From positions 1 through 64,000 of the IMG/VR virus record IMGVR_UViG_3300043775_000927: a DNA stretch of 64,000 bases; one strand, written 5' to 3'. A model generated the notes under the pieces. It saw only the letters and a program-made list of their open reading frames with translations, did no database searches and had not been told where the DNA came from. Numbering within the stretch: position 1 is the stretch's first letter; every line of letters begins with the position of its first letter. This DNA is from a virus. The position numbers and the translations under genes are program-made. Positions 13,191 through 32,313 of this stretch are shown piece by piece.

Positions 13191-13321
13191 AGTATTTTGA
13201 TTTTGATAAACTAGAACAATGGGCTGATTTGTTGGATCGTGGTCAACAAACAATTTTGCTTGCTATTATTATATTTTTAGTTTATACTTGGGTTAAATTG
13301 TTCTTGTCTTGGGATAACTAA
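13187..13321 (+). CDS. Small single-span membrane protein
   Basis: 44 residues with a charged N-terminus (MKYFDFDKLEQWADLLDRG) and one transmembrane segment (TILLAIIIFLVYTWVKLFL). Start and stop both overlap neighbours (ATGA and TAATG), which supports it as a real translated gene. Function unknown. Confidence 0.65.
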   Translation: MKYFDFDKLEQWADLLDRGQQTILLAIIIFLVYTWVKLFLSWDN

Positions 13322-13884
13322 TGAATATCTTTTATCTTTCTGATAATCCTGTAGAAGCTGCCGAGTGGATGGTAGATCGTCACGTTGTTAAGATGATCCT
13401 CGAATCTGCTCAGCTGCTTTCGACTGCACATCGTGTTCTTGATGGTAAAGAAATACAGTTAGAAGTTCAGATCGAACAAGAAGATGGCACTTTTAAAACG
13501 AAAAAGAAAAAATGGTGGTTACTTGGAGATGGTCGTGAAGACATACTATATTCAGCTACGCACATTAATCATCCGAGTTGTGTATGGACTCGGGCAAGTG
13601 TCGAGAATTATAATTGGCTCGTAGATCATTTCTTCGCTCTTATGAAGGAATATACATATCGTTATGAGAAAGAACATAAGTGTTTTGGTGAGTTGAGTTT
13701 TGCTTTGTGCACTCCTCCCAAAAATTTAGAAGAATACGATATGACTCTTATGCCATCTGCTATGGCCGATGAATATAAAATTTCAGAAGATCCTATTGTA
13801 AACTATCGTAATTATTATAAGATGGGTAAGACTCATCTTCATAGTTGGAAAAAACGTAACCCTCCGGAGTGGATGTATGTCTAA
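13321..13884 (+). CDS. Conserved phage protein of unknown function
   Basis: 187 residues starting MNIFYLSDNPVEAAEWMVDRHVVKMILESAQLLSTAHR, which I recognise as a family common in large phages, with conserved HVVKM, NHPSCVWTR and NYRNYY segments. The conserved His, Asp, Trp and Arg suggest an enzyme, but I know of no proven function. It overlaps the MazG gene by 8 bases. Confidence 0.65.
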   Translation: MNIFYLSDNPVEAAEWMVDRHVVKMILESAQLLSTAHRVLDGKEIQLEVQIEQEDGTFKTKKKKWWLLGDGREDILYSATHINHPSCVWTRASVENYNWLVDHFFALMKEYTYRYEKEHKCFGELSFALCTPPKNLEEYDMTLMPSAMADEYKISEDPIVNYRNYYKMGKTHLHSWKKRNPPEWMYV

Positions 13885-14257
13885 TATGTATCAAGATGTA
13901 AAAGAATTTCAAACAGCAGTTGGTCAGAATATTGGTCAGGCTCCAGTGTTCCCTGAACCCGCAGAACGTGAATTGCGTATTAAACTTTTGAAAGAAGAAT
14001 ACGAAGAATACATACAAGGTGAATGCAAAAATGACTTGGAAAACATCGCTAAAGAGCTTGCTGATATTATTTACATTGTCTGTGGGACTGCTGCATCTTA
14101 CGGTATTCCCTTGGATAGAGTCTTCGACGAAGTCCATAGATCGAACATGGCAAAATTAGTTGATGGTAAAGTTATTCGTCGTGATGATGGTAAGATTCTA
14201 AAGCCAGAAGGATGGACCCCTCCTGACATTAAATCTATTCTTTATGGAGTTGAGTGA
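13877..14257 (+). CDS. MazG-like nucleotide pyrophosphohydrolase
   Basis: 126 residues, all-alpha NTP pyrophosphohydrolase fold. LLKEEYEEY (EExxE type metal site) and ELADIIYIVCGTAASYGI (second acidic helix) are the MazG/dUTPase-like core, followed by the usual C-terminal KLVDGKVIRRDDGKILKPEGWTPPD. Such enzymes remove unwanted nucleotides. Position at the head of a DNA modification cluster may mean it clears a competing dNTP, which is inference. Confidence 0.85.
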   Translation: MSNMYQDVKEFQTAVGQNIGQAPVFPEPAERELRIKLLKEEYEEYIQGECKNDLENIAKELADIIYIVCGTAASYGIPLDRVFDEVHRSNMAKLVDGKVIRRDDGKILKPEGWTPPDIKSILYGVE

Positions 14258-15627
14258 TGGTAAGACGTATTGTCGCCAAGAATAAAATTGATTGCGAACA
14301 TCTTCTGGGTCAGTTTGTCGATGAAAGTAATTACGATATTCTAATCGAAGAAGACACTGATTGTTATATGCCCCCGCTCTGCGATCCTCTCGAAAAAGCT
14401 GAGTGTGGTATGGCTGCTTGCGATACTTGTGAAAAGGGCAATGACGAATTGCGTATTGCTTTCAAGTTTCGTAAAAACTATTTCAGTCAAGAAGAACAGG
14501 ATATGGCTTATCGTGGCTTGAGAGAAGCTGCGACTGAAAGCCAGAATCGTGGCCATGCTGCTGGTCCTCGTGGTGAAATGCTTGCAGCGCAAAGCCGTGG
14601 TGGTAGAGATTGGGTTACTCCATATCAGATGGAGATACTAGAGTTCCTTATGAATGATGGTGCATCTCTTATTGATGATACATCAATCGAATCCATCAGA
14701 GAAAAATATAAAAACGGTGGTCCAAAAGGTGCTGAAGAAACACGTGGTGTTGTTTGGTTGCGTTCAGAGGTAACAAAGGTTTATCCAGAATATCATGATT
14801 GGTTTGATAAATGGGTGGATGGCCTAAGTAATAAACCACAGGAGGAAATTCATGCCGAAGCAAGAATGGTCGCAGAAAAGTGGGCTTCTGCCACTAATTA
14901 CGCACAATCCGTATTCTCAGGTGTTGCTGGTTGGTACGATCGTTACCCTCGCATTCCTTACGGGCGTGCAACGTCATACACTGAAAAGCATCCAGAACTT
15001 TTCGAACTGGCATACCCATTCCTCCAATCACTGAATAAGGGTTTCAAGGAATTACTACCTTGGCGTTGGGGTAATCAGCGAGCAGCTGCAGATAAGTTAG
15101 ATCCTCGGTTCCTTGTACCAGAAACTGTATTTACCACAATTACAGTTAATAAAACTTTCCGCACTGCCTGTCATCGAGACGCTGGTGATCTTGATGCTGG
15201 TCTTTCTAATCTACTCGTTCTAGGCACAGGAGAATATACTGGTGGCTATCTCGTATTTCCTGAGTATCGTGTTGCTGTTAATGTTCGTCCCGGTGATTTG
15301 CTCCTTGTTAACAACCACGAAATCATTCATGGTAATACTCCTATTGTTCTTAACAATCCGGATGATTCTACTTGTGAAAGAATCTCAGTAATTTGTTACT
15401 TCCGTGAGAAGATGCTAGAACTAAAGTCTTATGAGTATGAAGCGTTACGTAAACAATATGTCGAAGAACGTCGTATGAATAAGGCTCATCCACTTCAGCG
15501 TCCACTATGGAATGGCGTCTCTCCTGGAATGTGGGATGACAAAGAATGGTATGAATATCTTCATGCTCATAATATGAAAGATCCATACGGTAAAGACGCT
15601 GCTGCTTCATTGGAGTCATTCTTCTAA
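14257..15627 (+). CDS. TET/JBP-superfamily 2-oxoglutarate dioxygenase (DNA base hydroxylase candidate)
   Basis: 456 residues. The C-terminal half carries the dioxygenase core: TFRTACHRDAGD with His306/Asp308, GGYLVFPEYRVAVNVRPGDLLLV, NHEIIHGN with His358, and Arg375 in ERISVICYF. The pairing of CHxDxxD with GxxTGGxLVFPE is the pattern of phage TET/JBP enzymes, which oxidise the methyl group of thymine or 5-methylcytosine in DNA. The N-terminal region has a Cys cluster (about 42-58) that may bind zinc. The start is the ATG in TGATG overlapping mazG. It heads a cluster of probable base-modification genes. Confidence 0.82.
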   Translation: MVRRIVAKNKIDCEHLLGQFVDESNYDILIEEDTDCYMPPLCDPLEKAECGMAACDTCEKGNDELRIAFKFRKNYFSQEEQDMAYRGLREAATESQNRGHAAGPRGEMLAAQSRGGRDWVTPYQMEILEFLMNDGASLIDDTSIESIREKYKNGGPKGAEETRGVVWLRSEVTKVYPEYHDWFDKWVDGLSNKPQEEIHAEARMVAEKWASATNYAQSVFSGVAGWYDRYPRIPYGRATSYTEKHPELFELAYPFLQSLNKGFKELLPWRWGNQRAAADKLDPRFLVPETVFTTITVNKTFRTACHRDAGDLDAGLSNLLVLGTGEYTGGYLVFPEYRVAVNVRPGDLLLVNNHEIIHGNTPIVLNNPDDSTCERISVICYFREKMLELKSYEYEALRKQYVEERRMNKAHPLQRPLWNGVSPGMWDDKEWYEYLHAHNMKDPYGKDAAASLESFF

Positions 15628-16310
15628 TGTGCGGAGTGCTAGGAATAGCGATCAAGAAGCCGAGCGAGCAGGAATTCGAACTTGTTCGTCGGCTTTTTGT
15701 TCAGTCAATGATCCGTGGTAAACATGCCACTGGTGTATCATATGTCAAAGATGGCAAGGTTCACACTATTAAAGAACCTGTTAATGCTTGCACATTCATA
15801 AACAATCAAGATATTCCTAGTTGGGTTAATGAAGATGGCAATCTATATTGTATTGGTCATGTTCGTTACTCAACTAGCGATCTTGCTTACAATCAACCAA
15901 TGGCAACCGAAGAACTTTCTATTGTTCATAATGGAGTTATCTCTCAGGAGAATCCAGAACAATGGAAAGAAACATTTGGTTATGATGTTATCACAAAGAA
16001 TGATAGCGAACTTATTCTTCGTTGTTTAGAGAAAGGCGAACTCCCTTTACATAAGTTCCATCCTGCAAGCATGTCGGTTTGCACTCTTGATAAAGATAAA
16101 GTAATTACTGCTTTCCGTAACGAAGCCAGACCATTGCATTATTCTTATGGAGCAAATGGTATTATATTTGCATCAACAGCAGATATTCTAAAAAGAAGCG
16201 GATTAGATATTCAAGTAGCTGCTCCTATGTTTGAACATTTCATTATTGATAATTTCAAAGTTATAAGCTATAATAGGTATGAGTTTCCATCAATCGAGGA
16301 CTTACAGTGA
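15627..16310 (+). CDS. Class II glutamine amidotransferase-like protein
   Basis: 227 residues beginning MCGVLGI, with Cys2 as the N-terminal nucleophile of Ntn-type glutaminases. IGHVRYSTSD and LSIVHNGVI are the conserved glutamine-site segments. It lacks an attached synthase domain, so it must supply ammonia to a partner or act alone. Stand-alone GATases occur in phage DNA-hypermodification loci, which fits the neighbours. It starts on the last base of the dioxygenase stop and ends in a GTGA overlap. Confidence 0.85.
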   Translation: MCGVLGIAIKKPSEQEFELVRRLFVQSMIRGKHATGVSYVKDGKVHTIKEPVNACTFINNQDIPSWVNEDGNLYCIGHVRYSTSDLAYNQPMATEELSIVHNGVISQENPEQWKETFGYDVITKNDSELILRCLEKGELPLHKFHPASMSVCTLDKDKVITAFRNEARPLHYSYGANGIIFASTADILKRSGLDIQVAAPMFEHFIIDNFKVISYNRYEFPSIEDLQ

Positions 16311-16948
16311 TATTTTTAACAGCAGATCAAGTTAATGGTATAATTGAAAAGTCTCCAGAAGGTAGAAACACAAACTTTTTAAAAGCTGCACATTCACTAT
16401 GGTTCAGGTTTAAGAACTACGATAAAGCACCGCCTGTTGCTCTTGAAGTAGATAATGAAATAGTTTCTATTATCTTTGCAACATACAATCGTTCTGGATA
16501 TACTAACCTGTATGAGATTGTAACTGTCCAAGGTAAAGAAGGTAAGGGTTACGCTTCCAAGATTTGGGAAGAATATATCTCATACGCAGTCAAAGAAAAA
16601 CGTTCTGATAGATTAAAGATATCTTGCACGCCTTCTTCTGTTACATGGCATATGAGAAATGGTCTTTTATTTTGGGCTGTTGATCCTACTGGTTCTCTTC
16701 GTTCTGATCAAAAATTATTTCCTACAAGAAAAGAGCAATTAGAATATCAACAGTATGGAGTTAATAACCCTACTCAGGTGTTGCCACCAGAAAAAGTCAT
16801 CGAACAATTTCTTTCTGAAGGTTTAGAGAATCATAATTTTGGCACAAAAAAGAAAACAAAGGTAGAAGAAGCAATAAATTCTGTTGGAAAGTATTGGTTG
16901 CGCTCTGCATTATATAACAATTCGTCCCTTGAAAGTTTCTTGAGTTGA
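16307..16948 (+). CDS. GNAT-like acetyltransferase
   Basis: 213 residues. LYEIVTVQGKEGKGYASKIWEEYISYA (about 65-91) fits the acetyl-CoA-binding motif (Q/R-x-x-G-x-G/A) of GNAT enzymes. The start is GTG at 16307, overlapping the preceding TGA, with GAGGAC upstream. GNATs are recurrent members of phage DNA base-modification clusters; here it may acetylate an attached amino group, but this is inferred from context only. Confidence 0.65.
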   Translation: MIFLTADQVNGIIEKSPEGRNTNFLKAAHSLWFRFKNYDKAPPVALEVDNEIVSIIFATYNRSGYTNLYEIVTVQGKEGKGYASKIWEEYISYAVKEKRSDRLKISCTPSSVTWHMRNGLLFWAVDPTGSLRSDQKLFPTRKEQLEYQQYGVNNPTQVLPPEKVIEQFLSEGLENHNFGTKKKTKVEEAINSVGKYWLRSALYNNSSLESFLS

Positions 16949-17922
16949 AAGTTAAACAAGACTTTATTAATTGGTATAAGTGGTCACTTTCCATTAAGGA
17001 TTGCGATCCGGCGATATTCATGACCAATTATCTTTTCAAAAGATTTGAGCATAACAGAGAACAAAAACTCTGGATTGCTTGGATCTACGGCACAACGTAT
17101 TATTTTCCAACAACATGGGTGATATGGAATGAGTTTCCTGATATGGAACTTGTTGGTCTTGATCGCCTAAAGGATTGGAACAATAAGAATTATAAACGCC
17201 TACGTTATCAAACAGACACTAAATGGAACAAAGGACATTTACCTGCGCAGTTTGAATCGTATAAGAACTGGGTTGGAGATCGTTCCCAGATAGAAGCGTT
17301 TCGTCCGTTTCTTACTGGAACGCCAAGAGAAAACTTTGATATGCTATGGGATGAAGTGAAAACCAAGTTCCATAAGTTCGGTAGATATTCTACTTGGTTC
17401 TATTTACAAACATTAAAACAGTGTTGTGATCTGCCTATTGAACCTGGTAATCTAATGCTAGAAGATCATTCAGGTTCTCGTTCTCATCGTAACGGTTTAT
17501 GCCTCGCTGTTGGATTAGATCAATGGTATGATCAAAAACTAAATGCCAAACAGATAAACTATTTGGACGGTCAGGCATATTATATTCTAAAAGAAGTTCA
17601 AGAGGAATTTCCTGACACTGATTATTTCGATATGGAAACGTGTCTTTGTTCTTTTAAAAAGTTATTCAGAGTAAAACATGGTCGTTACCTGAGTTACTAT
17701 CTTGATCGTCAGGCAGAAGAAATTGCTCAATGTGAAAAGGATGGCTGGGATGGTATTGATTGGCAACCAATGTGGGACGCTCGAAATGAAACTCTAAATA
17801 ATAAACTGTTGACAAACAAGATTGACAATAGTAAAATGGCTTTATATATTGAGAATGGCGTTCTAGATTGCACAGGTTTGTTTGTTGAACCTGAGAGTGT
17901 CGGTATTGAAAGGTTTATGTAA
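16945..17922 (+). CDS. Putative amino acid:DNA transferase (alpha-glutamyl/putrescinyl-thymine pyrophosphorylase-like)
   Basis: 325 residues, Trp/Tyr-rich. The segment GRYSTWFYLQTLKQ followed by NLMLEDHSGSRSHRNGL (about 150-192) is the hallmark I associate with this family, predicted to displace pyrophosphate from activated hydroxymethyluracil in DNA and attach an amino acid or amine. It is followed directly by the P-loop kinase that would make the activated base. The start is TTG at 16945, overlapping the previous stop (TTGA). Confidence 0.7.
   Translation: MKVKQDFINWYKWSLSIKDCDPAIFMTNYLFKRFEHNREQKLWIAWIYGTTYYFPTTWVIWNEFPDMELVGLDRLKDWNNKNYKRLRYQTDTKWNKGHLPAQFESYKNWVGDRSQIEAFRPFLTGTPRENFDMLWDEVKTKFHKFGRYSTWFYLQTLKQCCDLPIEPGNLMLEDHSGSRSHRNGLCLAVGLDQWYDQKLNAKQINYLDGQAYYILKEVQEEFPDTDYFDMETCLCSFKKLFRVKHGRYLSYYLDRQAEEIAQCEKDGWDGIDWQPMWDARNETLNNKLLTNKIDNSKMALYIENGVLDCTGLFVEPESVGIERFM
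17809..17837 (+). promoter_or_regulatory. Possible internal sigma70-like promoter before the DNA kinase gene
   Basis: TTGACA, 17-base spacer, TAAAAT, inside the 3' end of the preceding gene; transcription would start near 17845, about 77 bases before the kinase ATG. Confidence 0.4.
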
Positions 17923-18461
17923 TGAAAGTGATTGCGATTGGTGGTGAGCCAGGTGCTGGCAAGTCTACGTTAATGAAAGAAATTCTTACTAAGTTTGTTT
18001 GGTCTAAGATTTATGATAGCGTGAAGCTCGTTCCCTATCTTCAGTATGGAAAATATTATATTCTTGGTAAGTATGACGAAGGCGAAACCTTCTCGGGTAC
18101 AGACCGTATGTCAATGGCGGTTCAGCCAGAAGCAATTAAATTCCTAGCAAGTTTAGATAAAGATGCGGTCGTTCTTTTCGAAGGCGATCGTCTTTTCACG
18201 TCAACGTTCCTAGAACATTGTGTTGAGAATTACGATACTGAAATCATTTATCTAGAAACTGATAAGGAAGTTCGCCAAGAGCGATACAAGGAACGTGGTA
18301 GCAATCAGAACGAAACTTGGTTGCAGGGTCGTGAAACTAAGATTGCTAATATTATGACAAACATGACTCTGATGTTTAACACTAATAGATATAAAAATAA
18401 TAACAAAGACGATCAGAAATTTATTATTGAAGATATTATGAATAAATTGGAGAACTCATGA
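17922..18461 (+). CDS. P-loop kinase, 5-hydroxymethyluracil DNA kinase-like
   Basis: 179 residues. Walker A GGEPGAGKST at 7-16. The segment GKYDEGETFSGTDRMSMAVQP (about 50-70) and VVLFEGDRLF resemble the P-loop kinases described in phage thymine-hypermodification loci, which phosphorylate 5-hydroxymethyluracil within DNA. A generic nucleotide kinase is the alternative. It overlaps the upstream gene by one base. Confidence 0.72.
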   Translation: MKVIAIGGEPGAGKSTLMKEILTKFVWSKIYDSVKLVPYLQYGKYYILGKYDEGETFSGTDRMSMAVQPEAIKFLASLDKDAVVLFEGDRLFTSTFLEHCVENYDTEIIYLETDKEVRQERYKERGSNQNETWLQGRETKIANIMTNMTLMFNTNRYKNNNKDDQKFIIEDIMNKLENS

Positions 18462-18901
18462 CCAAAACTTATAGATTTGAGAATGGCGATTATTATGGTC
18501 AACCGCTTTCTGCGTCAGCGCAGGCAATTGGTGCAACTGGTCCTACTGGTGCTGTTGGTTCAAAGCGACAAGAAGATCCTTATGTTGGAATGAGCATGGA
18601 TCCGCCAATTGCTTCAACTTGGCCGCCTAAATATAAATATAAGGAAGACGAAATTATTCGTGACTTCCACGCCTATATCGACAAGACATATGGGCAACAT
18701 TATATGACTGAAGAGCAAAATATAGAATGTTTCGACGTGTGGCTCGCCCTCGGTGATTCTATGCCTACCTTCCGAAACACAGCTATTAAGTATCTCTGGC
18801 GCTACGGTAAGAAGAACGGTAGCAACAAAGCAGATCTTATGAAGGTTCTTCATTACACTCTTATGATGTTATACAACGATCATTATAAGGATAAGAAATG
18901 A
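18458..18901 (+). CDS. DUF3310-like conserved phage protein
   Basis: 147 residues. The C-terminal half (HYMTEEQNIECFDVW...AIKYLWRYGKKN..ADLMKVLHY) is the DUF3310 pattern found in many phages; function unknown. The N-terminal third has collagen-like Gly-Ala-Thr-Gly-Pro-Thr-Gly spacing and is probably disordered. The ATG overlaps the kinase stop, so it may belong to the same operon. Confidence 0.7.
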   Translation: MTKTYRFENGDYYGQPLSASAQAIGATGPTGAVGSKRQEDPYVGMSMDPPIASTWPPKYKYKEDEIIRDFHAYIDKTYGQHYMTEEQNIECFDVWLALGDSMPTFRNTAIKYLWRYGKKNGSNKADLMKVLHYTLMMLYNDHYKDKK

Positions 18902-19119: not shown

Positions 19120-19986
19120 ATGGAAATTCAGATCCCTATTGAAAAATTGAGAGAGCGTGGTCTATTCGTCGCCACGCCAATGTATGGTGGACAGTGTGCA
19201 GGTATGTTCGCAAAGTCGTCAGCTGACTTGTCTGCTTTGTGCACACAGTATGGTATTCCTCTACAGTTTTATTATTTGTTTAATGAATCACTAATTCCTC
19301 GTGCACGTAACTATTGTTGTGACGAGTTTATGCGTTCCAATATGCAGCACATGATGTTTATTGATGCTGACATCGGATTCAATCCACAGGACGTCATTGC
19401 GCTTATGGCTCTTCAGGTTCAGGAAGAAGATAAGTATGACATCATTGGCGGACCATATCCAAAGAAGTGTATTTCTTGGGAAAAGGTTAAGCACGCTGTT
19501 GATAAGGGTGTTGCTGACGAAGATCCAAACGTCCTTGAAAAGTTCGTTGGCGATTATGTCTTCAATCCAAAGGGTGGGCAGCAGTCTATTCCTCTTAGCG
19601 AACCAGTAGAAGTTCTTGAAATTGGAACTGGCTTCATGATGGTTTCTAAGAAGGCAATGCAGAAGTTTGTCGATTCTTATCCAGAATATAATTATAAACC
19701 AGATCATGTCCGTACTGAACACTTTGATGGCACTCGTGAAATCATGATGTTCTTTCAGGCAGAGATCGATCCTAAGTCTAAGCGTTATCTTTCAGAAGAT
19801 TATTGGTTCTGTCAGAAGGCTCAGGAAATTGGACTGCGTACATGGTTCTGTCCATGGATGAAGATGCAGCACGTAGGCACCTATATCTTTGGTGGTTCGT
19901 TGGCTGATCTTGCTTCAGTTGGTGCTTCTGCGACCGCCGATCCAGGTGCACTTGGTAAGTATAAAGACAAAGGCAAAAAGAAGTAA
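19120..19986 (+). CDS. GT-A-type glycosyltransferase-like protein
   Basis: 288 residues. GLFVATPMYGGQC at the N-terminus, a DxD-type metal motif in FIDADIGFNP (about residues 80-90), GGPYPKK, IGTGFMMVSKKA and LSEDYWFCQKA are the order of conserved blocks in phage GT-A-like proteins. It could glycosylate modified DNA or a surface sugar. Being next to the hypermodification genes makes DNA attractive, but there is no direct evidence. Confidence 0.65.
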   Translation: MEIQIPIEKLRERGLFVATPMYGGQCAGMFAKSSADLSALCTQYGIPLQFYYLFNESLIPRARNYCCDEFMRSNMQHMMFIDADIGFNPQDVIALMALQVQEEDKYDIIGGPYPKKCISWEKVKHAVDKGVADEDPNVLEKFVGDYVFNPKGGQQSIPLSEPVEVLEIGTGFMMVSKKAMQKFVDSYPEYNYKPDHVRTEHFDGTREIMMFFQAEIDPKSKRYLSEDYWFCQKAQEIGLRTWFCPWMKMQHVGTYIFGGSLADLASVGASATADPGALGKYKDKGKKK

Positions 19987-20000
19987 GTGGAGATTATATA

Positions 20001-20654
20001 ATGAAGATTGATACTAATACAGTAAATGTTTTGAAGAACTTCTCAAAGATTAATCCTTCGATTGTTGTTCAGCAGGGTAATGTTCTTAAGACCATTTCCC
20101 CAAATAAGACCATTATGGCAAAGGCTACTGTTCCGACAGAGTTTACTAAGAAGTTTGCCATCTATGATCTTAACCAGTTCCTTTCTAGCCTGAGTCTATA
20201 CAATGACCCAGATCTAGAAATCGATGAGACTTTTGTTTATATGAAGGACTCTTCTTCGGAACAGGGCAAGTTCCTTCTTGCTGACGAGAGCACAATCACT
20301 AAGGCTCCAGAGAAGGATATTAACATTCCATCAACGGATGTTACCTTTACTCTAAAGAACGAAGATCTTAATAAGGTCGAGAAGGCTGCTGGTGTTTTGA
20401 GTCTGCCAGAAATCGTTGTTGCTGGTGACGGCAAGACTGTTTTCCTAAAGGCAGCTAACTCAAAGAATCCAGGTAATGAGTTTTCTCTACCAATTGGAGA
20501 AACTACAAAGACTTTTAACGCAGTCTTTAAGTTTGAGAACATTAAGATTCTTCCTGGTGATTATGAGGTCACCATTTCAGCACGAGGTATTTCTAAGTTC
20601 ATTGGTAAGGACGTGGAATACTTTATTGCAGTTGAGCAGCACTCAACATTCTAA
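20001..20654 (+). CDS. 45: DNA polymerase sliding clamp gp45
   Basis: 217 residues (T4 gp45 is 228). Two repeats of the clamp fold are visible; TNTVNVLKNFSKINPSI and LEIDETFVYMKDSS belong to the first, and LPEIVVAGDGKTVFLKAANSKN to the second. It serves as processivity clamp and, in T4, as activator of gp55-dependent late transcription. Gene order 45-44-62-regA is that of T4. A strong terminator follows. Confidence 0.94.
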   Translation: MKIDTNTVNVLKNFSKINPSIVVQQGNVLKTISPNKTIMAKATVPTEFTKKFAIYDLNQFLSSLSLYNDPDLEIDETFVYMKDSSSEQGKFLLADESTITKAPEKDINIPSTDVTFTLKNEDLNKVEKAAGVLSLPEIVVAGDGKTVFLKAANSKNPGNEFSLPIGETTKTFNAVFKFENIKILPGDYEVTISARGISKFIGKDVEYFIAVEQHSTF

Positions 20655-25300: not shown

Positions 25301-25380
25301 GGGAGTGTGTGTCCGGAATTGGTTACGGCAAGGTCTGCAAAACCTAAAATATGTGGGTTCGAGTCCCATCACTCCCTCCA
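25301..25380 (+). tRNA. tRNA-Cys(GCA)
   Basis: Acceptor GGGAGTG/CACTCCC, T-arm GTGGG-TTCGAGT-CCCAT, anticodon loop CTGCAAA, encoded CCA. It starts two bases after the terminator T-run. Confidence 0.88.
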
Positions 25381-25388
25381 AAAAGTTG

Positions 25389-25417
25389 TTGACTTCTTCG
25401 GAAGTTTAGGTTATAAT
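25389..25417 (+). promoter_or_regulatory. Sigma70-like promoter of the tRNA cluster
   Basis: TTGACT, 17-base spacer, TATAAT. The transcript would start near 25424, just 6 bases before the first stem of the structured RNA at 25430. Confidence 0.85.
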
Positions 25418-25429
25418 GAATATATAATG

Positions 25430-25558
25430 CTTAGATAGGTACAGGCTCGTGCGAGCAAGGCGCCAGTAAATACTGATGCTCAAACCTTGTATCTTTATCC
25501 GTGGGCTCTGGTTGCAACCATCTCCGTCCGAGATATAGTAAACCTGTATCTTTCTAAG
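25430..25558 (+). ncRNA. Structured non-coding RNA with a 16-bp terminal helix
   Basis: The ends CTTAGATAGGTACAGG and CCTGTATCTTTCTAAG pair over 16 positions with one mismatch. Inside are hairpins GCTC-GTGC-GAGC, CAGT-AAAT-ACTG, a CAAGG/CCTTG helix around it, and the palindrome GGTTGCAACC. There is no open reading frame or tRNA cloverleaf. A strong promoter places the 5' end next to the helix, so a stable RNA of about 130 nt is likely. Role unknown; T4 also makes stable non-tRNA species from its tRNA region. Confidence 0.7.
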
Positions 25559-25567
25559 TGTTATTAT

Positions 25568-25642
25568 TGTTCCATAGCACAACGGTTAGTGCAAACGACT
25601 GATAATCGTTAGATCCAAGTTCGATTCTTGGTGGAACAACCA
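25568..25642 (+). tRNA. tRNA-Ile(GAT)
   Basis: Acceptor TGTTCCA/TGGAACA (7 perfect pairs), D-stem GCAC/GTGC, anticodon loop CTGATAA, T-arm CCAAG-TTCGATT-CTTGG, encoded CCA. Its anticodon loop is identical to that of the RNA element at 33478. Confidence 0.93.
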
Positions 25643-25715
25643 GAATACTCCGAGGCTACAACTACCATTTTAATGGTCTCGGGAAGGGTTGGGTGGTAGC
25701 AACCCGAGAGTTTAT
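25643..25715 (+). other. Structured spacer RNA with two mutually exclusive hairpins
   Basis: No gene. CTCGG (678-682) can pair upstream with CCGAG (649-653) around the hairpin ACCAT-TTTA-ATGGT, or downstream as CTCGGG/CCCGAG around GGGTT...AACCC. The two folds exclude each other. Confidence 0.4.
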
Positions 25716-25790
25716 GGCTCCTTCGTCTATCGGTTAGGACACAAGACTTTCAATCTTGGTAGGGGGGTTCGATTCCCCCAGGAGTCACCA
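25716..25790 (+). tRNA. tRNA-Glu(TTC)
   Basis: Acceptor GGCTCCT/AGGAGTC, anticodon loop CTTTCAA, T-arm GGGGG-TTCGATT-CCCCC, encoded CCA. Confidence 0.93.
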
Positions 25791-25794
25791 TATA

Positions 25795-25905
25795 TTCGGT
25801 CCGTGTGGTACCGTGCGAATCCTCGATGGAGGAGTGTCCGAATTAAAATAACCCGCAAGGGCGCTGTCTTTTCTCGCCATGGAAGGGTAAGATGGAAACG
25901 GTACA
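25795..25905 (+). other. Structured spacer RNA of unknown function
   Basis: ATTCGG/CCGAAT close a 50-base domain (25795-25844), and GTACCGT can pair with ACGGTAC near 25899 over long range; CCCGCAAGGG is a small hairpin. No reading frame or tRNA fold is convincing. Confidence 0.4.
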
Positions 25906-25915
25906 AGGAATTTAT

Positions 25916-25991
25916 GGACCTGTAGCTGAGTTGGTTTTAGCAGGAGACTCTTAATCTCTTGACGGGGGTTCGAATCCCTCCAGGTCTACCA
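25916..25991 (+). tRNA. tRNA-Lys(CTT)
   Basis: Acceptor GGACCTG/CAGGTCT, anticodon loop CTCTTAA, T-loop TTCGAAT, encoded CCA. Confidence 0.9.
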
Positions 25992-25994
25992 TTT

Positions 25995-26071
25995 GGATCC
26001 TTAGTTCAGTAGGTTAGAACATCCGACTTTTAATCGGTATGTCCTGGGTTCGAATCCCAGAGGATCCTCCA
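25995..26071 (+). tRNA. tRNA-Lys(TTT)
   Basis: Acceptor GGATCCT/AGGATCC, anticodon loop CTTTTAA, T-arm CTGGG-TTCGAAT-CCCAG, encoded CCA. Confidence 0.93.
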
Positions 26072-26087
26072 TTAAACACCGTGGTTT

Positions 26088-26095
26088 TATAAATA
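26088..26095 (+). promoter_or_regulatory. T4-type late promoter (TATAAATA) for the HNH gene
   Basis: Exact TATAAATA 39 bases before the HNH endonuclease ATG, inside an otherwise early-type tRNA cluster. It suggests that the mobile gene brought its own late promoter. Confidence 0.7.
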
Positions 26096-26126
26096 AAGCA
26101 AAAGGCGTCAGTTTATGAGGTATTAG

Positions 26127-26519
26127 ATGCATTGCTTAAATTGCGGTAAAGAAATAAAAGCTGGTAAGTATTGTAATAATAAATGCCAGGGAGAGTTAAG
26201 AACCAAGAAACTATTACAAGAATGGTTTGATGGTAATGACAAAGGATATAAAGCTGGATTAAGAGTTAAGTCTCATATCAGAAGATATATGTTAGAGAAA
26301 TCTAATTATAGTTGTTCTGAATGTGGATGGAATAAAATAAATCCAGTGACTGGTAATTCTCCTCTAGAAATAGATCATATAGATGGAGATTGTGCTAACT
26401 GTAAAGAAGAGAATTTAAAAGTTCTTTGTCCTAATTGTCATTCTTTAACTCCAACTTGGAAAGCCTTAAATAAAGGCAATGGTAACAAAGAAAGACACAA
26501 GTATTCTAAATTGATTTAA
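26127..26519 (+). CDS. Free-standing HNH homing-type endonuclease
   Basis: 130 residues. An N-terminal zinc ribbon (CLNCG...CNNKC, residues 3-19) is followed by the HNH core: CSECGW, LEIDHIDGD (catalytic His), NLKVLCPNCHSLTPTWK. Such genes spread between phage genomes by double-strand breaks. It lies between tRNA-Lys and tRNA-Asp and does not interrupt a gene, so it is free-standing rather than intron-encoded. It has its own late promoter. Confidence 0.88.
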   Translation: MHCLNCGKEIKAGKYCNNKCQGELRTKKLLQEWFDGNDKGYKAGLRVKSHIRRYMLEKSNYSCSECGWNKINPVTGNSPLEIDHIDGDCANCKEENLKVLCPNCHSLTPTWKALNKGNGNKERHKYSKLI

Positions 26520-26520
26520 T

Positions 26521-26596
26521 GGGGGCGTAGCTCAATTGGGAGAGCGCAGCACTGTCACTGCTGAGGTAGCGAGATCGAAACTCGTCGCTCCCGCCA
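26521..26596 (+). tRNA. tRNA-Asp(GTC)
   Basis: Acceptor GGGGGCG/CGCTCCC, anticodon loop CTGTCAC, D-stem GCTC/GAGC, encoded CCA. It starts two bases after the HNH stop codon. Confidence 0.92.
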
Positions 26597-26601
26597 TATA
26601 T

Positions 26602-26693
26602 GGGGGATGGTGTTGGTACACAGGGAGGTTTTATAAACCTTTCAGCGCCCGATTAGCGTTCTCGACTCGGTTCGAATCCGGGATCCCCTACCA
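26602..26693 (+). tRNA. Class II tRNA with apparent anticodon TAT (Leu-like body)
   Basis: Acceptor GGGGGAT/ATCCCCT, T-arm CTCGG-TTCGAAT-CCGGG, a long variable arm of about 20 bases, encoded CCA. The D-region GGATGGTG resembles bacterial tRNA-Leu. The anticodon stem GAGGT/ACCTT frames the loop TTTATAA, giving TAT (codon AUA, Ile) where a Leu body would have TAA. Assignment of the amino acid is therefore open. Confidence 0.75.
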
Positions 26694-26696
26694 ATT

Positions 26697-26786
26697 GGAG
26701 AGTTGGCCGAGTGGTCGAAGGCACTTCACTGCTAACGAAGCGAGGGCGAAAGTCTTCCGAGAGTTCGAATCTCTCACTCTCCGCCA
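26697..26786 (+). tRNA. tRNA-Ser(GCT)
   Basis: Class II with long variable arm; acceptor GGAGAGT/ACTCTCC, anticodon loop CTGCTAA, T-arm GAGAG-TTCGAAT-CTCTC, encoded CCA. Confidence 0.92.
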
Positions 26787-26795
26787 AAAAAGTTA

Positions 26796-26824
26796 TTGAC
26801 TTGTTAGAAAATTTATAGTATTAT
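26796..26824 (+). promoter_or_regulatory. Sigma70-like promoter before the 19-bp-stem RNA
   Basis: TTGACT, 17-base spacer, TATTAT. The start would fall near 26831, nine bases before the terminal helix of the RNA at 26840. Confidence 0.75.
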
Positions 26825-26839
26825 GACTAAATAGAATAC

Positions 26840-27004
26840 TTGATAATACGCCAACGGATCAGACTACGGTTCGAAACGTTGACAAATGATACGGTAAGAA
26901 TTGATCCAGACTAACCTGCGATGGTTAGCACCCGATGAGGGTGTAATAGCAAACGGTGATAAGGCTACCTATTGGTCATTGTTGGTCCGTTGGCGTATTA
27001 TCAA
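26840..27004 (+). ncRNA. Structured non-coding RNA with a perfect 19-bp terminal helix
   Basis: TTGATAATACGCCAACGGA (26840-26858) is the exact reverse complement of 26986-27004, giving a 19-bp closing helix around a 127-base interior. Interior hairpins include CTAACC-TGCGAT-GGTTAG and CACCC-GATGA-GGGTG. No reading frame fits. The unit is preceded by a strong promoter and ends one base before tRNA-Ala. Length is 165 nt. Function unknown. Confidence 0.8.
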
Positions 27005-27005
27005 T

Positions 27006-27081
27006 GGGGGTGTAGCTCAACTGGGAGAGCAGCTGCCTTGCACGCAGCAGGTTGCAGGTTCGATGCCTGTCACTTCCACCA
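27006..27081 (+). tRNA. tRNA-Ala(TGC)
   Basis: Acceptor GGGGGTG/CACTTCC, anticodon loop CTTGCAC, D-stem GCTC/GAGC, encoded CCA. Confidence 0.92.
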
Positions 27082-27084
27082 ATT

Positions 27085-27168
27085 GGAGGATGGCGTGCCT
27101 GGGGCACACAGAGTCTTGAAAACTCCGCCACCGAAAGGTTGATGGTTCGATTCCTTCATCCTCCGCCA
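27085..27168 (+). tRNA. tRNA-Ser(TGA)
   Basis: Class II; acceptor GGAGGAT/ATCCTCC, anticodon loop CTTGAAA, variable arm with CCGAAAGG, encoded CCA. Confidence 0.9.
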
Positions 27169-27170
27169 GT

Positions 27171-27244
27171 ATCAGTGAAGTGTTACGGTAGCACGGGAGT
27201 CTCCAAAACTCTAGGCGAGGGTTCGACTCCTTCCACTGGTGCCA
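27171..27244 (+). tRNA. tRNA-Trp(CCA)
   Basis: Acceptor ATCAGTG/CACTGGT, anticodon loop CTCCAAA, T-loop TTCGACT, encoded CCA. Confidence 0.88.
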
Positions 27245-27251
27245 ATTTAAT

Positions 27252-27295
27252 GAGTCGGGGATGTATGACACAATTTGTGCCCTGACTCTATTTTT
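27252..27295 (+). terminator. Hairpin with T-run, terminator-like
   Basis: GAGTC...GACTC with inner GGG/CCC and CACAATTTGTG hairpin, followed by TATTTTT. It contains the motif GACACAATTTGTGCC that recurs at 27759. Confidence 0.45.
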
Positions 27296-27386
27296 CGCTG
27301 GACTGCTAATCGATGGTTCCTAGGTCTGTCGAGGTGTTTACCAGTAGAGGGTCCCGATACCTCTATAATAACAGGGAAGCTATTTC
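27296..27386 (+). other. Structured tRNA spacer, unknown
   Basis: About 90 bases without a gene. CTGG/CCAG and AGAGG/CCTCT hairpins are visible. GGACTGCTAATC resembles the anticodon loop of tRNA-Ser(GCT), but no cloverleaf forms. Confidence 0.3.
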
Positions 27387-27461
27387 GCTGGTAGGTCGGC
27401 AAGATGTCGAGGAGTCCTCATAAGGCTTTAAAGGTTGGTTTGATTCCAACTATCAGCACCA
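27387..27461 (+). tRNA. tRNA-Met(CAT)
   Basis: Acceptor GCTGGTA/TATCAGC, anticodon loop CTCATAA, T-arm GTTGG-TTTGATT-CCAAC, encoded CCA. The D-loop lacks an obvious GG. Confidence 0.85.
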
Positions 27462-27543
27462 GGTTTGATCTAGATACACAGCCTTTATGGAGTGTCGTAA
27501 TACTAGACAACATTCGTCCCAAGGCGTGAGGGACAGCGAGTTT
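27462..27543 (+). other. Structured tRNA spacer, unknown
   Basis: Contains CTAG...CTAG closing a hairpin with ACAC/GTGT, and a GTCCC/GGGAC hairpin. No gene seen. Confidence 0.3.
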
Positions 27544-27619
27544 TGCGGGCGGGAGGTATAGTATCTCGCTGGTCTCATAAACCAGTAGAAGTTGGTGCAA
27601 TTCCAACGCATCGCATCCA
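27544..27619 (+). tRNA. Atypical tRNA with CAT anticodon
   Basis: Anticodon arm CTGGT-CTCATAA-ACCAG and T-stem GTTGG/CCAAC are perfect, but the T-loop is TGCAATT (G where the conserved second T should be), and the acceptor TGCGGGC/CATCGCA has two mismatches. CCA is encoded. It may be a diverged Met or lysidine-type Ile tRNA, or a non-decoding tRNA-like RNA. Confidence 0.6.
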
Positions 27620-27626
27620 GTATAAT

Positions 27627-27703
<77 letters not shown>

Positions 27704-27832
27704 ATTCGCCCGCTTCGGCGTAGAAAAATAGAGCGCATGTAGGACCGAGTGCAGACAGGACACAATTTGAGCCATACTGCGAAAGTGCACTAGTAGCAGG
27801 AAGGCGGACGAGTCTTCGGTCCAGGGAATTTT
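27704..27832 (+). other. Structured tRNA spacer RNA, unknown
   Basis: 129 bases without a gene. GGACCGA/TCGGTCC close a domain holding GTGCA/TGCAC; CGC-TTCG-GCG is a small hairpin. It contains GACACAATTTGAGCC (27759-27773), 14 of 15 bases identical to 27267-27281. Confidence 0.4.
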
Positions 27833-27908
27833 GGGGGATTAGCTCAGCTGGGAGAGCAACGCTTTTACACGGCGAAGGTCGGCAGTTCAATCCTGTCATC
27901 CCCTACCA
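27833..27908 (+). tRNA. tRNA-Val(TAC)
   Basis: Acceptor GGGGGAT/ATCCCCT, anticodon loop TTTACAC, T-loop TTCAATC region, encoded CCA. The permuted tRNA-like RNA at 33360 has the same anticodon loop. Confidence 0.92.
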
Positions 27909-27997
27909 TATGTTCCAGTAGGACGGTCATAGACGTATGGCTTAGTCTCTGGCAGGGTGCTGGTTAGCTCGTAACTATCACAGACCCGTAAGTTTAT
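27909..27997 (+). other. Structured tRNA spacer, unknown
   Basis: About 90 bases without a gene; an AGAC/GTCT hairpin and Gly-rich stretches are visible but no clear fold. Confidence 0.25.
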
Positions 27998-28074
27998 GCC
28001 CCAATAGCCCAATTGGTAGAGGCGTCGGTCTTAGGAACCGAAGGTTGGGAGTTCGAATCTCTCCTGGGGCACCA
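27998..28074 (+). tRNA. Class I tRNA with TAG anticodon (Leu, CUA codon)
   Basis: Acceptor GCCCCAA/CTGGGGC (last pair mismatched), anticodon arm TCGGT-CTTAGGA-ACCGA, short variable loop, encoded CCA. Bacterial tRNA-Leu normally has a long variable arm; this one does not. Confidence 0.75.
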
Positions 28075-28075
28075 T

Positions 28076-28151
28076 GCTTCTCTGGTGTAGCTGATGCGCA
28101 CGCTCGTCTGAAGAACGAGAGGACTCTGTTTGATTCTGAGGGGAAGCACCA
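28076..28151 (+). tRNA. tRNA-Phe(GAA)
   Basis: Acceptor GCTTCTC/GGGAAGC, anticodon arm CTCGT-CTGAAGA-ACGAG, encoded CCA. The T-stem has one mismatch. Confidence 0.87.
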
Positions 28152-28155
28152 TTAT

Positions 28156-28257
28156 AGGTCAGTGACGTAATAGTAACCGTGGCGCTAACGCTGGGCGCTG
28201 TTGTCTATTATCCGGATAATGGATAACGTGTAGGTGCAACTCCTACCTGGCCTACCA
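28156..28257 (+). ncRNA. tRNA-like RNA with long variable arm and non-canonical anticodon loop
   Basis: Acceptor AGGTCAG/CTGGCCT (7 pairs), T-stem GTAGG/CCTAC, encoded CCA. The T-loop is TGCAACT, as in the atypical RNA at 27544. The variable arm is a 12-13-bp helix (GTTGTCTATTATC with GATAATGGATAAC). The anticodon-position loop AACGCTG lacks the T33 required for decoding. Probably a tRNA mimic rather than a working tRNA; a strange class II tRNA cannot be excluded. Confidence 0.65.
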
Positions 28258-28263
28258 TATAAT

Positions 28264-28341
28264 GCTCCTATATCCCAACTGGTAGAGGACGTTGACTCAA
28301 AATCATCGCTAGTGTCAGTTCGAATCTGACTAGGAGTACCA
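28264..28341 (+). tRNA. Class I tRNA with CAA anticodon (Leu, UUG codon)
   Basis: Acceptor GCTCCTA/TAGGAGT, anticodon loop CTCAAAA, T-arm GTCAG-TTCGAAT-CTGAC, encoded CCA, short variable loop although the anticodon is Leu. It ends 4 bases before the phosphoesterase ATG. Confidence 0.78.
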
Positions 28342-28345
28342 TATT

Positions 28346-28846
28346 ATGACTATCTTTGTTGTTAGTGATACGCACTTTGGTCATGCTAATATACTCAACT
28401 TCAAACAGGCAGATGGTTCTCCTGTTAGAAACTTTTCTTCTGTTGAAGAAATGGATGAGCATATGGTTGAACGTTGGAACAGTGTTGTTTCTGACTCTGA
28501 CATTGTGTATCATCTAGGTGATGTTTATTTTGGTAAAGGTCATCAGCATCTTTACAGATTGAAAGGGCGTAAGCGTCTTATTCTTGGCAACCATGATAAT
28601 GCTAAGAACGAACACATACAGAATGTCTTTCAAAAGATTATGGTCTGGAGAATGTTTCCGGAATACAATGCTACTCTGTCGCATATTCCATTGCATGTTT
28701 CTAGTCTGTATAAAACAAAGTATAATGTTCATGGACATGTGCATCGTAATAGTTTGCCCGATGAAGCATATAAGAATGTTTCCGTTGAGGTAATTGATTA
28801 CACACCTGTTCCATTACTGGATTGTCTCGATAGCTCAACTGAATAG
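28346..28846 (+). CDS. Calcineurin-like metallophosphoesterase
   Basis: 166 residues with the metal-site motifs in order: SDTHFGH (7-13), HLGDVYF, LGNHDN, LSHIPLH, VHGHVH. A small stand-alone phosphoesterase, common in phages; the substrate (nucleotide, RNA end or protein phosphate) cannot be deduced. It lies inside the tRNA cluster, and its last 23 bases overlap tRNA-Arg, with the stop codon in the tRNA D-loop. Confidence 0.88.
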   Translation: MTIFVVSDTHFGHANILNFKQADGSPVRNFSSVEEMDEHMVERWNSVVSDSDIVYHLGDVYFGKGHQHLYRLKGRKRLILGNHDNAKNEHIQNVFQKIMVWRMFPEYNATLSHIPLHVSSLYKTKYNVHGHVHRNSLPDEAYKNVSVEVIDYTPVPLLDCLDSSTE

Positions 28847-28900
28847 AGCATCGGTCTACGAAACCGAAGGCTACAGGTTTGAATCCTGTTCGGGACTCCA
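28824..28900 (+). tRNA. tRNA-Arg(ACG)
   Basis: Acceptor GTCTCGA/TCGGGAC, anticodon arm TCGGT-CTACGAA-ACCGA, encoded CCA. The first 23 bases are also the coding end of the phosphoesterase gene. Confidence 0.9.
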
Positions 28901-28905
28901 TTAAT

Positions 28906-28989
28906 GCCGAGACCGCCTGAGTGGACGGGCACCCGACTGTAAATCGGACGCTTATAGCACGGTAGGTTCGAACCCTACTCTCGGCACCA
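28906..28989 (+). tRNA. tRNA-Tyr(GTA)
   Basis: Class II; acceptor GCCGAGA/TCTCGGC, anticodon loop CTGTAAA, encoded CCA. Confidence 0.93.
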
Positions 28990-28996
28990 TTTTTGT

Positions 28997-29071
28997 TCGG
29001 GGATAGTTTAATTGGTAGAACGGCAGATTTTGGTTCTGTCTATCAGGGTTCGAGTCCTTGTCCCCGATCCA
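28997..29071 (+). tRNA. tRNA-Gln(TTG)
   Basis: Acceptor TCGGGGA/TCCCCGA, anticodon loop TTTTGGT, T-loop TTCGAGT, encoded CCA. Confidence 0.92.
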
Positions 29072-29075
29072 GTTT

Positions 29076-29149
29076 GCTGGGATAGTGTAGTGGTAGCACA
29101 CGAGTTTGTGGAGCTTGTAGTTCAGGATCGATACCTGGTCCCAGTACCA
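29076..29149 (+). tRNA. tRNA-His(GTG)
   Basis: Acceptor GCTGGGA/TCCCAGT, anticodon loop TTGTGGA, D-stem GTGT/ACAC, encoded CCA. Confidence 0.9.
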
Positions 29150-29160
29150 TTGAGGTTGTT

Positions 29161-29895
29161 ATGAAAGTTTATTGGACAGCAGTAAATACATTCAATGTAA
29201 ATGAGAGTGATAATCATTCGCTCCAGTTTTTGAATTATTACGAACCGATGAAAACTTCGGAACTGTTTAATAAATTACCTTCGAACGATCTAAAACCGTT
29301 GGACAATTTTAAGTATTGTCCTAGTATGAAAAGAAGAATTCATAATTCGTATGAGTTAAGATTTCCTATTGATTACACTTTAAAATTTACTGACGATGGC
29401 GATGTCTATTCTGATATGTATGATCAGAAATTTTTTGATGATGTTGTTAGAGTTAGAATGGCAAAAGAGAGATTGATCTCTCTTAATTTATACTATTGGT
29501 TTATTCCAGAACAAAGCGTAGAGATTCAGACGACTCCTACGTATCTCGGCGATACCGAGTTTGGTAAAACAACCATTGGTATGCCAGGACAGTTTAATAT
29601 ATATGAATGGATTAGAAACATAGAGTTTGCCTTTTTCGTGAGGAACGGATATAATGAGGTAACTTTAAAACGTGGAGATCCTTATCTTAATGTAAAGTTT
29701 ATGACCGATGAAAATGTAGAACTGGTAAAGTTCTATCCATCAGAGAAAATTTTACATTTGATGCAACGAAATTTGTCTGCAAGAAATAATAAATATCCTT
29801 TGATTAGTCCTTTAGAATATTATTATGACTTGTTTAGAAAATCAAAACTTAGAAAACAGTTTATGGAAGAGGTTTTAGATAATCTCTTAGAATGA
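29161..29895 (+). CDS. Hypothetical protein in the tRNA cluster
   Basis: 244 residues starting MKVYWTAVNTFNVNESDNHSLQFLNYYEP, rich in Tyr, Phe and Asn. Blocks such as SYELRFPIDYTL and PGQFNIYEWIRNIEFAF look conserved, and I believe similar proteins occur in other large phages, but I cannot name a family or function. It lies between tRNA-His and tRNA-Asn. Confidence 0.6.
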   Translation: MKVYWTAVNTFNVNESDNHSLQFLNYYEPMKTSELFNKLPSNDLKPLDNFKYCPSMKRRIHNSYELRFPIDYTLKFTDDGDVYSDMYDQKFFDDVVRVRMAKERLISLNLYYWFIPEQSVEIQTTPTYLGDTEFGKTTIGMPGQFNIYEWIRNIEFAFFVRNGYNEVTLKRGDPYLNVKFMTDENVELVKFYPSEKILHLMQRNLSARNNKYPLISPLEYYYDLFRKSKLRKQFMEEVLDNLLE

Positions 29896-29899
29896 ATAT

Positions 29900-29974
29900 T
29901 CCCTGGTAGCTCAGTGGTAGAGCAGGTCGCTGTTAACGACTTGGCCGGAGGTTCGAATCCTTCTCAGGGAGCCA
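29900..29974 (+). tRNA. tRNA-Asn(GTT)
   Basis: Acceptor TCCCTGG/TCAGGGA, anticodon loop CTGTTAA, T-loop TTCGAAT, encoded CCA. It starts 5 bases after the upstream stop codon. Confidence 0.93.
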
Positions 29975-29989
29975 TTTTTAGGATGTTGT

Positions 29990-30574
29990 ATGTCTGCCTT
30001 CATACATGATTATTGCAAGGTCTATCCCAATCATTTGGGAGAAGATATTTGCGATGAATTGATTGCGATGTTTAAATGGAAACCAGATCTTCATATCAGA
30101 TATGATGATGACGGTTTTCCGAATATGACGCAGATGAATTTTAGTCGTCATAAACTAATACATCCTACACTACATCAGCATCTAGTTGAACGTGCATTCG
30201 ATGGTATCGAGAGATATCGTAAGGAAGTTCCGGAGACTAGGTTCTGGCCAAAGAATTTCGCATTCGAAGAGTTTAGAATCAAACATTATTCGGATGGCAG
30301 AGAGTATCCTAACAGACAGTCAATAGATCGGTTCGATGAACATATCGATTCGAATGATCTTATTTCTGGCAAACGGTTTATGATTTTCTTTTGGTATCTA
30401 AACAGACCAGAGAGTGGCGGAAATACCTGTATAACGAATATCAATCTGCATTACGAACCAGCAAAAGGTAAGCTGTTAATGTTCCCTCCTTTCTGGATGT
30501 ATCCGCATGCAGGCGAGGCAGTATTAAGAGGCGATAAGTATTTACTAAGTTCGTATATGCATTACAGCGAGTGA
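29990..30574 (+). CDS. 2-oxoglutarate/Fe(II)-dependent oxygenase-like protein
   Basis: 194 residues. HxD at His118/Asp120 (RFDEHIDSND), distal His173 (MYPHAGEAV) and a basic residue at Arg180 or Lys183 for 2-oxoglutarate; MIFFWYLNRPESGGNT is the conserved strand between them. Probably a prolyl-hydroxylase-like enzyme; substrate unknown. The ATG follows tRNA-Asn, and the gene is closely followed by an unknown protein. Confidence 0.78.
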   Translation: MSAFIHDYCKVYPNHLGEDICDELIAMFKWKPDLHIRYDDDGFPNMTQMNFSRHKLIHPTLHQHLVERAFDGIERYRKEVPETRFWPKNFAFEEFRIKHYSDGREYPNRQSIDRFDEHIDSNDLISGKRFMIFFWYLNRPESGGNTCITNINLHYEPAKGKLLMFPPFWMYPHAGEAVLRGDKYLLSSYMHYSE

Positions 30575-30576
30575 TT

Positions 30577-31503: not shown

Positions 31504-31523
31504 TAGGATAAATAGGGTATAAT
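31496..31523 (+). promoter_or_regulatory. Sigma70-like promoter
   Basis: TTGACT, 16-base spacer, TATAAT. Transcription would begin near 31530 and run into the secreted-protein genes, tRNAs and probably the RNA array. Confidence 0.85.
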
Positions 31524-31531
31524 AGAATTAT

Positions 31532-31581
31532 AGATTGGGATGGACGCCAGAAATAGTCTCGTGTAGATCAAAGGTTAATCT
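31532..31581 (+). promoter_or_regulatory. Structured 5' leader
   Basis: AGATT and AATCT close a 50-base leader directly after the transcription start and before the ribosome-binding site at 31592. The helix is short; regulatory meaning is uncertain. Confidence 0.3.
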
Positions 31582-31601
31582 GCTATCTTATGGAGATGAA
31601 G

Positions 31602-32235: not shown

Positions 32236-32236
32236 C

Positions 32237-32312
32237 GCTGGTATAGCTCAGACGGTAGAGCAGTTGCCTTGTAAGCATCAGGTCGAGGGTTCGATTCCTT
32301 CTGCCAGCACCA
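32237..32312 (+). tRNA. tRNA-Thr(TGT)
   Basis: Acceptor GCTGGTA/TGCCAGC, anticodon loop CTTGTAA, D-stem GCTC/GAGC, encoded CCA. It starts one base after the upstream stop. Its anticodon loop is repeated in the RNA element at 33239. Confidence 0.93.
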
Positions 32313-32313
32313 T

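Follow-up and report, generated by a model that had tools for sequence, protein, structure and literature searches.

An operon of five genes in a T4-like phage appears to encode a line of enzymes that modifies thymine in newly made DNA while docked on the phage's sliding clamp. The operon lies at positions 14254-18461 of the window, as the whole stretch of DNA analysed is termed here, which comprises the first 64 kb of the linear IMG/VR virus record IMGVR_UViG_3300043775_000927 (G000; 90,245 bases). It sits within the phage's replication cluster, where genes for gp46/gp47, gp44/gp62, RegA and a gp45-type sliding clamp are arranged around it. It is proposed that large phages tether DNA-base modifiers to the clamp through a copied polymerase peptide that co-evolves within each lineage, and that in this phage such tethering drives a thymine-modifying line, begun by a TET/JBP dioxygenase (TET), behind the replisome; the probability of this reading is put at about 0.65. 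A second IMG/VR record, G001 (146,587 bases), is identical to G000 over 63,555 bases and represents the same phage. Jointly the two amount to about 173 kb, near a full T4-like genome, both being linear records from which small parts may be missing.

The five open reading frames, each overlapping the next by one to four bases, and the following features on which the argument depends are arranged thus:

14254-15627, plus strand: TET/JBP dioxygenase, the proposed first enzyme (PF12851, Tet_JBP, 2.1e-23; fold)
15598-15624, plus strand: tail at the C-terminus of TET (..AAASLESFF), which matches that of the DNA polymerase (..STLEDFFND)
15627-16310, plus strand: class II (N-terminal Cys) glutamine amidotransferase, no clamp-type tail (PF13522, GATase_6, 6.6e-11)
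16307-16948, plus strand: GNAT acetyltransferase with clamp-type tail ..SSLESFLS (Pfam and relatives)
16945-17922, plus strand: amino acid:DNA transferase (ADDT) with clamp-type tail ..SVGIERFM (PF18724, 8.3e-26)
17922-18461, plus strand: P-loop kinase, proposed hydroxymethyl-base DNA kinase, no tail (PF18751, Ploopntkinase3, 5.2e-13)
20001-20654, plus strand: gp45-type sliding clamp, proposed docking site of the tails (RB69 clamp 1b77/1b8h, 9e-24; T4 gp45, 7e-23)
57356-58120, minus strand: ThyX, flavin-dependent thymidylate synthase (PF02511, 1e-43)

These frames, their junctions and the identities of all five products are as proposed in an earlier, sequence-only reading of this DNA, the identities being borne out by Pfam and, for GNAT, through its relatives. 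The Tet_JBP match scores 82.8 bits against a cut-off of 34.9, and the AlphaFold model of TET (mean pLDDT 79.5) has CcTet, NgTET1, TET2 and CMD1 as its top Foldseek matches. Its iron and 2-oxoglutarate ligands, numbered from the GTG at 14254, are His307, Asp309, His359 and Arg376, all invariant across 36 relatives and likewise in more remote ones, among them that of mycobacteriophage Heath; the numbers first given, His306, Asp308, His358 and Arg375, hold when counting from the ATG at 14257. ADDT scores 91.6 bits against a cut-off of 26.2, the amidotransferase has Cys2 (MCGVLG) and the kinase has the Walker A motif GEPGAGKST. Taken alone, GNAT matches Acetyltransf_1 weakly (0.006), and the assignment is made firmer by a relative (in locus L134) matching at 8.8e-7 and by an acetyl-CoA loop seen in a 16-member alignment. 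The kinase falls outside the HMUD2 and HMUDK_hel families (PF18747/PF18723) of the phages ViI and D506, matching instead PF18751, the type that adjoins TET and ADDT in actinophages (also Heath gp4). That this is a DNA-base modification operon is very likely.

The C-termini of TET (..ASLESFF), GNAT (..SSLESFLS) and ADDT (..VGIERFM) share a hydrophobic-acidic pattern with that of the phage's DNA polymerase (..STLEDFFND), and no other match occurs in the 247 predicted proteins of G000 and G001. The polymerase tail aligns to that of RB69 polymerase, the last 11 residues of which are held in a co-crystal with the RB69 clamp, and in T4 the tails of gp43, gp55 and gp33 bind gp45 and are mutually exchangeable (PMC2988020). 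The T4 proteins gp43 and gp55 end KASLDFLFG and SLDFLYEAND, respectively; gp55 of the present phage was not counted as a further carrier, its end (..LVGVEKFSEVEENEE) being just loosely similar. Because TET, GNAT and ADDT share the polymerase's clamp-binding tail, modification is taken to be clamp-docked and post-replicative. As judged from these sequences, docking through the tails is probable, and the tails argue independently for action on polymerised DNA. RNA or a small molecule could otherwise be supposed to be the target of the operon, since MazG, amidotransferases and GNATs are generic and, of 25 tRNA genes predicted, 24 are clustered at 25303-32775. The TET/JBP and ADDT families are nonetheless ones of DNA-base enzymes, and a polymerase-type tail indicates DNA, which makes this an exceedingly improbable account.

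The specificity of the tail was assessed in 1361 non-redundant proteins from 159 loci (80 with TET and an additional 79 with ADDT), using a regular expression written after the polymerase and TET tails had been seen, such that the counts describe specificity rather than constituting a blind test. The tail was found on 140 of these proteins, against 1.4 expected from shuffled ends. Five modification families account for 131 of the carriers among their 167 members: TET (66/75), ADDT (50/75), TAGT (10/10), GT1 (3/4) and a family termed c12 (2/3). The other nine are four GNATs, two DNA polymerases (identified by their N-termini), one TAGT, one GT1-type glycosyltransferase and one protein left unexplained. 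No carriers were found among the kinases (67), glycosyltransferases (66), amidotransferases (46), gp46, clamp and MazG proteins or the rest. Proteins of the c12 family, about 260 residues long with no Pfam match, are encoded between TET and ADDT (L043:1548-2333, L053:2008-2781 and L055:10320-11099); being mostly tail-bearing, they are predicted to act on DNA.

Since the genes are tightly packed, the shared peptide might reflect the overlap of ribosome-binding sites and start codons with the ends of preceding genes, rather than clamp binding. GGAG- or GAAAG-like stretches do occur within the TET and GNAT tails, and the nearly invariable EDLQ end of the amidotransferase, considered as a second docking tail, was rejected on the grounds that it coincides with the ribosome-binding site (a GAGGA motif) and start (an ATGA overlap) of the next gene. 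The clamp-type tail behaves differently: its Ser, Leu and Phe residues are conserved despite free variation in their codons, and it is kept in seven of the nine TETs for which the following gene lies at a distance of over 15 bases or was not found. Tails are also present on polymerases and TAGT proteins, and the unlike tails of ViI and D506 match those phages' own polymerases. An artefact of gene overlap was consequently rejected, and as a general explanation it is considered very improbable.

More independent evidence than the regular-expression counts for docking on the clamp comes from tails in other phages, which match by lineage. In two of 12 further IMG/VR relatives examined, G002 (162 kb) and G004 (152 kb), the tail is found on the polymerase and TET alone; in C48C1 a D12 adenine methylase and one further protein bear it besides these two. 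The methylase, which is Dam-like and ends ..STLDAFFG, is encoded directly after the DNA polymerase (L266:13480-14364; record positions 33480-34364). In Caulobacter phage Cr30, the polymerase end ..ADLSSLFD matches ..SDLSKLF on a TAGT-like glycosyltransferase. The ViI polymerase (VNLLSMMGKKG), HMUD2 kinase (VSLLGLMRKA) and ADDT (VNLMSLLKR) end alike, and with one small protein make up four of 209 proteins. Similarly, Vibrio phage D506, a relative of ViI, has a [KR]LW end on five of 208 proteins: its polymerase, ADDT, HMUD2, HMUDK_hel and again a small one. The fit is looser in Pseudomonas phage Cygsa01 (..ASVMDFFS against ..NDLMGFFQ, ..NVFDLF and ..SVLDLF), and no T4-type or polymerase-like clamp tails were found among the proteins of Heath. 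The rule spans at least three types of tail sequence, including that of ViI, the modification chemistry of which is known. Small, cysteine-rich, tail-bearing proteins of 70-103 residues are encoded in ViI (30355-30567), D506 (55591-55890) and Cygsa01 (109399-109710), and are possibly gp33-like coactivators.

The absence of an enzyme making a hydroxymethylated nucleotide points to the base being hydroxylated within DNA. The sequence-only reading saw no thymidylate hydroxymethylase in the window, and none is detectable there with PF00303, although a ThyX gene had been overlooked. Profile searches beyond the window extend the result, no hydroxymethylase of the thymidylate synthase (TS) type being found in G000, G001 or the 12 further relatives. 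A PF00303 protein is likewise absent from DLP6 and C48C1, S-CBWM1 was also searched, and Cr30, which also has TET, is the only searched genome with a TS-family protein. Cytosine-C5 methylases (PF00145) were found in none of 14 genomes tested, several of them nearly whole, so a phage C5 methylase supplying TET was rejected. ThyX would make ordinary thymidylate; it is not a hydroxymethylase, and was rejected as the missing one since release of hydroxymethyl-dUMP is not a known activity of this enzyme. If the hydroxymethyl base were nevertheless made as a nucleotide, by an unsequenced hydroxymethylase or a variant ThyX, TET would serve only to oxidise it further. The pairing of a TS-family protein with TET in Cr30, the presence of ThyX and the small gaps possible in the linear records G000 and G001 leave some room for this route, but the lack of any TS-family protein in the searched genomes other than Cr30, on which a nucleotide hydroxymethylase elsewhere in the genome was rejected, and the constancy of TET in these loci render it very unlikely.

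Given that there is neither a TS-type hydroxymethylase nor a C5 methylase, that ThyX is present and that ADDT and the 5-hydroxymethyldeoxyuridine DNA kinase families belong to the thymine pathway of ViI (PMC7653180), thymine oxidised within polymerised DNA is the likely substrate of TET. The earlier suggestion that the dioxygenase makes a hydroxymethyl base directly in DNA is thereby supported, as it is by the polymerase-type tails, with the chemistry predicted from the enzyme families; of the two bases then named, hydroxymethyluracil is favoured over hydroxymethylcytosine. The full scheme proposed, a post-replicative hypermodification line docked on the clamp, is reasonably probable. Ordinary thymidylate would be made and incorporated by the phage, following which TET would oxidise the 5-methyl group of thymine to give 5-hydroxymethyluracil on the finished strand. 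The P-loop kinase would then phosphorylate the hydroxyl, converting it to a leaving group, which ADDT would exchange for a small nucleophile. An amino acid or an amine is the probable nucleophile; the tail-less amidotransferase would work in solution and may help to make it, and GNAT would acetylate the attached group. Throughout, TET, ADDT and GNAT would be held at new DNA by their copies of the polymerase's clamp-binding tail. The order of steps and the nature of the added group are, like the substrate and the clamp binding, predicted from sequence.

Several observations weigh against this proposal. Characterised phage TETs use 5-methylcytosine, and the invariant Asp312, three residues beyond the HxD motif, aligns with the 5-methylcytosine-reading residue of NgTET1; methyl groups could be supplied by a host methylase. 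From these points it might be argued that TET oxidises 5-methylcytosine and that the kinase and ADDT use 5-hydroxymethylcytosine. This is thought unlikely, thymine being favoured because no C5 methylase was found in the 14 genomes and the ViI thymine pathway is where ADDT and the 5-hydroxymethyldeoxyuridine DNA kinase families belong (PMC7653180). As for the tails, their glutamate overlaps the ribosome-binding sites of the following genes, such that conservation may be partly translational; the tail of ADDT matches less closely than that of TET; and the kinase, expected to act on DNA, has a tail in none of the 67 members of this group, unlike the kinases of ViI and D506. Furthermore, the clamp contact of T4 alpha-glucosyltransferase is not the main cause of that enzyme's dominance (PMC13216743).

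Across the scanned loci, TET is the constant gene, usually located between gp46/deformylase/MazG and DUF3310/glycosyltransferase/clamp, and is followed by one of a number of cassettes. These consist of a TAGT glycosyltransferase alone; amidotransferase-amidoligase-GNAT-(nuclease-like)-ADDT-kinase; amidotransferase-GNAT-ADDT-kinase, as in the window, with close GNAT relatives in L133, L138 and L162; ADDT-inositol-1-phosphate synthase-HAD-kinase; N6/N4 methylase-ADDT-kinase; PLP-type enzyme-ADDT-kinase; a kinase alone; or a GT1-type glycosyltransferase. Both main kinds, glycosylation and kinase with ADDT, use a hydroxyl group, as TET would supply. Amidation, which had been suggested as a further step, is less supported, as the usual Amidoligase_2 partner of the amidotransferase has no match in G000 or G001, though present in many relatives (family c3). 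Public annotations of these genes can mislead: TET is labelled an SNF2 DNA repair protein or queuine tRNA-ribosyltransferase in DLP6, Cr30, S-CBWM1, Heath and Soto, and the kinase a terminase small subunit.

The genes flanking the operon are:

13877-14257, plus strand: MazG/PRA-PH-type nucleotide pyrophosphohydrolase, a conserved neighbour (PF01503, 2.5e-18; synteny)
18458-18901, plus strand: DUF3310-like protein, the downstream boundary of the cassette (Pfam; synteny)
19120-19986, plus strand: glycosyltransferase with a GT-A fold, conserved irrespective of cassette type, tail-less (fold search)

A MazG gene thus precedes the operon and a glycosyltransferase follows it, both as first described, but because the latter is kept whatever the cassette and lacks a tail, it is regarded as a neighbour and not clearly an operon member. 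The protein encoded at 13321-13884, whose gene immediately precedes MazG at the majority of TET loci, weakly matches Pyr_excise (pyrimidine-dimer glycosylase; 0.0017). Outside the window, a NodU/CmcH-type carbamoyltransferase gene without a clamp tail adjoins the DNA polymerase (G000:81886-83514, minus strand; L006:4886-6514); enzymes of this type are able to carbamoylate hydroxymethyl bases, and this copy may accordingly represent a further modification step. G000 also carries pmoC, encoding methane monooxygenase subunit C (84806-85573, minus strand; L006:7806-8573; PF04896, 7e-108), the product of which is closest, among solved structures, to methanotroph PmoC chains, suggesting a methanotrophic host. 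Two tryptophan-halogenase-family genes are found in G001 (113542-115107 and 122235-123839, minus strand).

If correct, this proposal sets out a TET-first path to DNA hypermodification, with swappable decorations, in T4-like phages lacking a nucleotide hydroxymethylase, cultured relatives being Stenotrophomonas phage DLP6 and Caulobacter phage Cr30. The shared tail offers a mechanism by which modification could keep pace with replication, and would mark DNA-acting proteins in genomes of unknown chemistry, providing a simple sequence rule for recognising further DNA-modifying enzymes, for instance c12 and the Dam-like methylase of C48C1. No description of the polymerase-tail rule was found in the limited collection of literature searched.

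TET-first hypermodification is said to have been predicted since 2013, and Burke in 2021 and Pyle in 2024 reportedly described phage hypermodification based on TET and 5-methylcytosine. In those systems TET likewise starts the pathway, and some loci related to the window also use a TET-associated glycosyltransferase; the window differs in lacking a C5 methylase and in having conjugation by a kinase and ADDT rather than glycosylation. The pathway of ViI, a Kuttervirus, shares with the window ADDT and a DNA-base kinase, both of which in ViI end like its polymerase. It differs in that a TS-family enzyme produces the hydroxymethylated base at the nucleotide level, the kinase is HMUD2 rather than Ploopntkinase3 and no TET is found in the ViI stretch examined; in D506, a TS is annotated beside the modification locus. 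The set of TET, ADDT and kinase in Rhodococcus phage Tonitrus has been published as an actinobacteriophage thymidine hypermodification locus (PMC11955845), and in Heath the Tet_JBP, ADDT and Ploopntkinase3 proteins are gp2, gp3 and gp4, labelled as a queuine tRNA-ribosyltransferase, a hypothetical protein and a terminase small subunit, respectively. The trio was hence already known, making the operon less novel than the sequence-only reading implied; what is new is the shared polymerase tail. The actinophage locus (Tonitrus; Heath gp1-4) resembles the window in its adjoining Tet_JBP, ADDT/aGPT-Pplase-type and Ploopntkinase3 genes, but has a ParB-like gene upstream, no amidotransferase or GNAT annotated alongside and, in Heath, no T4-type clamp tails, the phage type being unrelated. 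T4 alpha-glucosyltransferase, which binds gp45, is itself a base modifier on the sliding clamp (PMC13216743); its C-terminus is not polymerase-like, whereas here several enzyme families share the polymerase tail.

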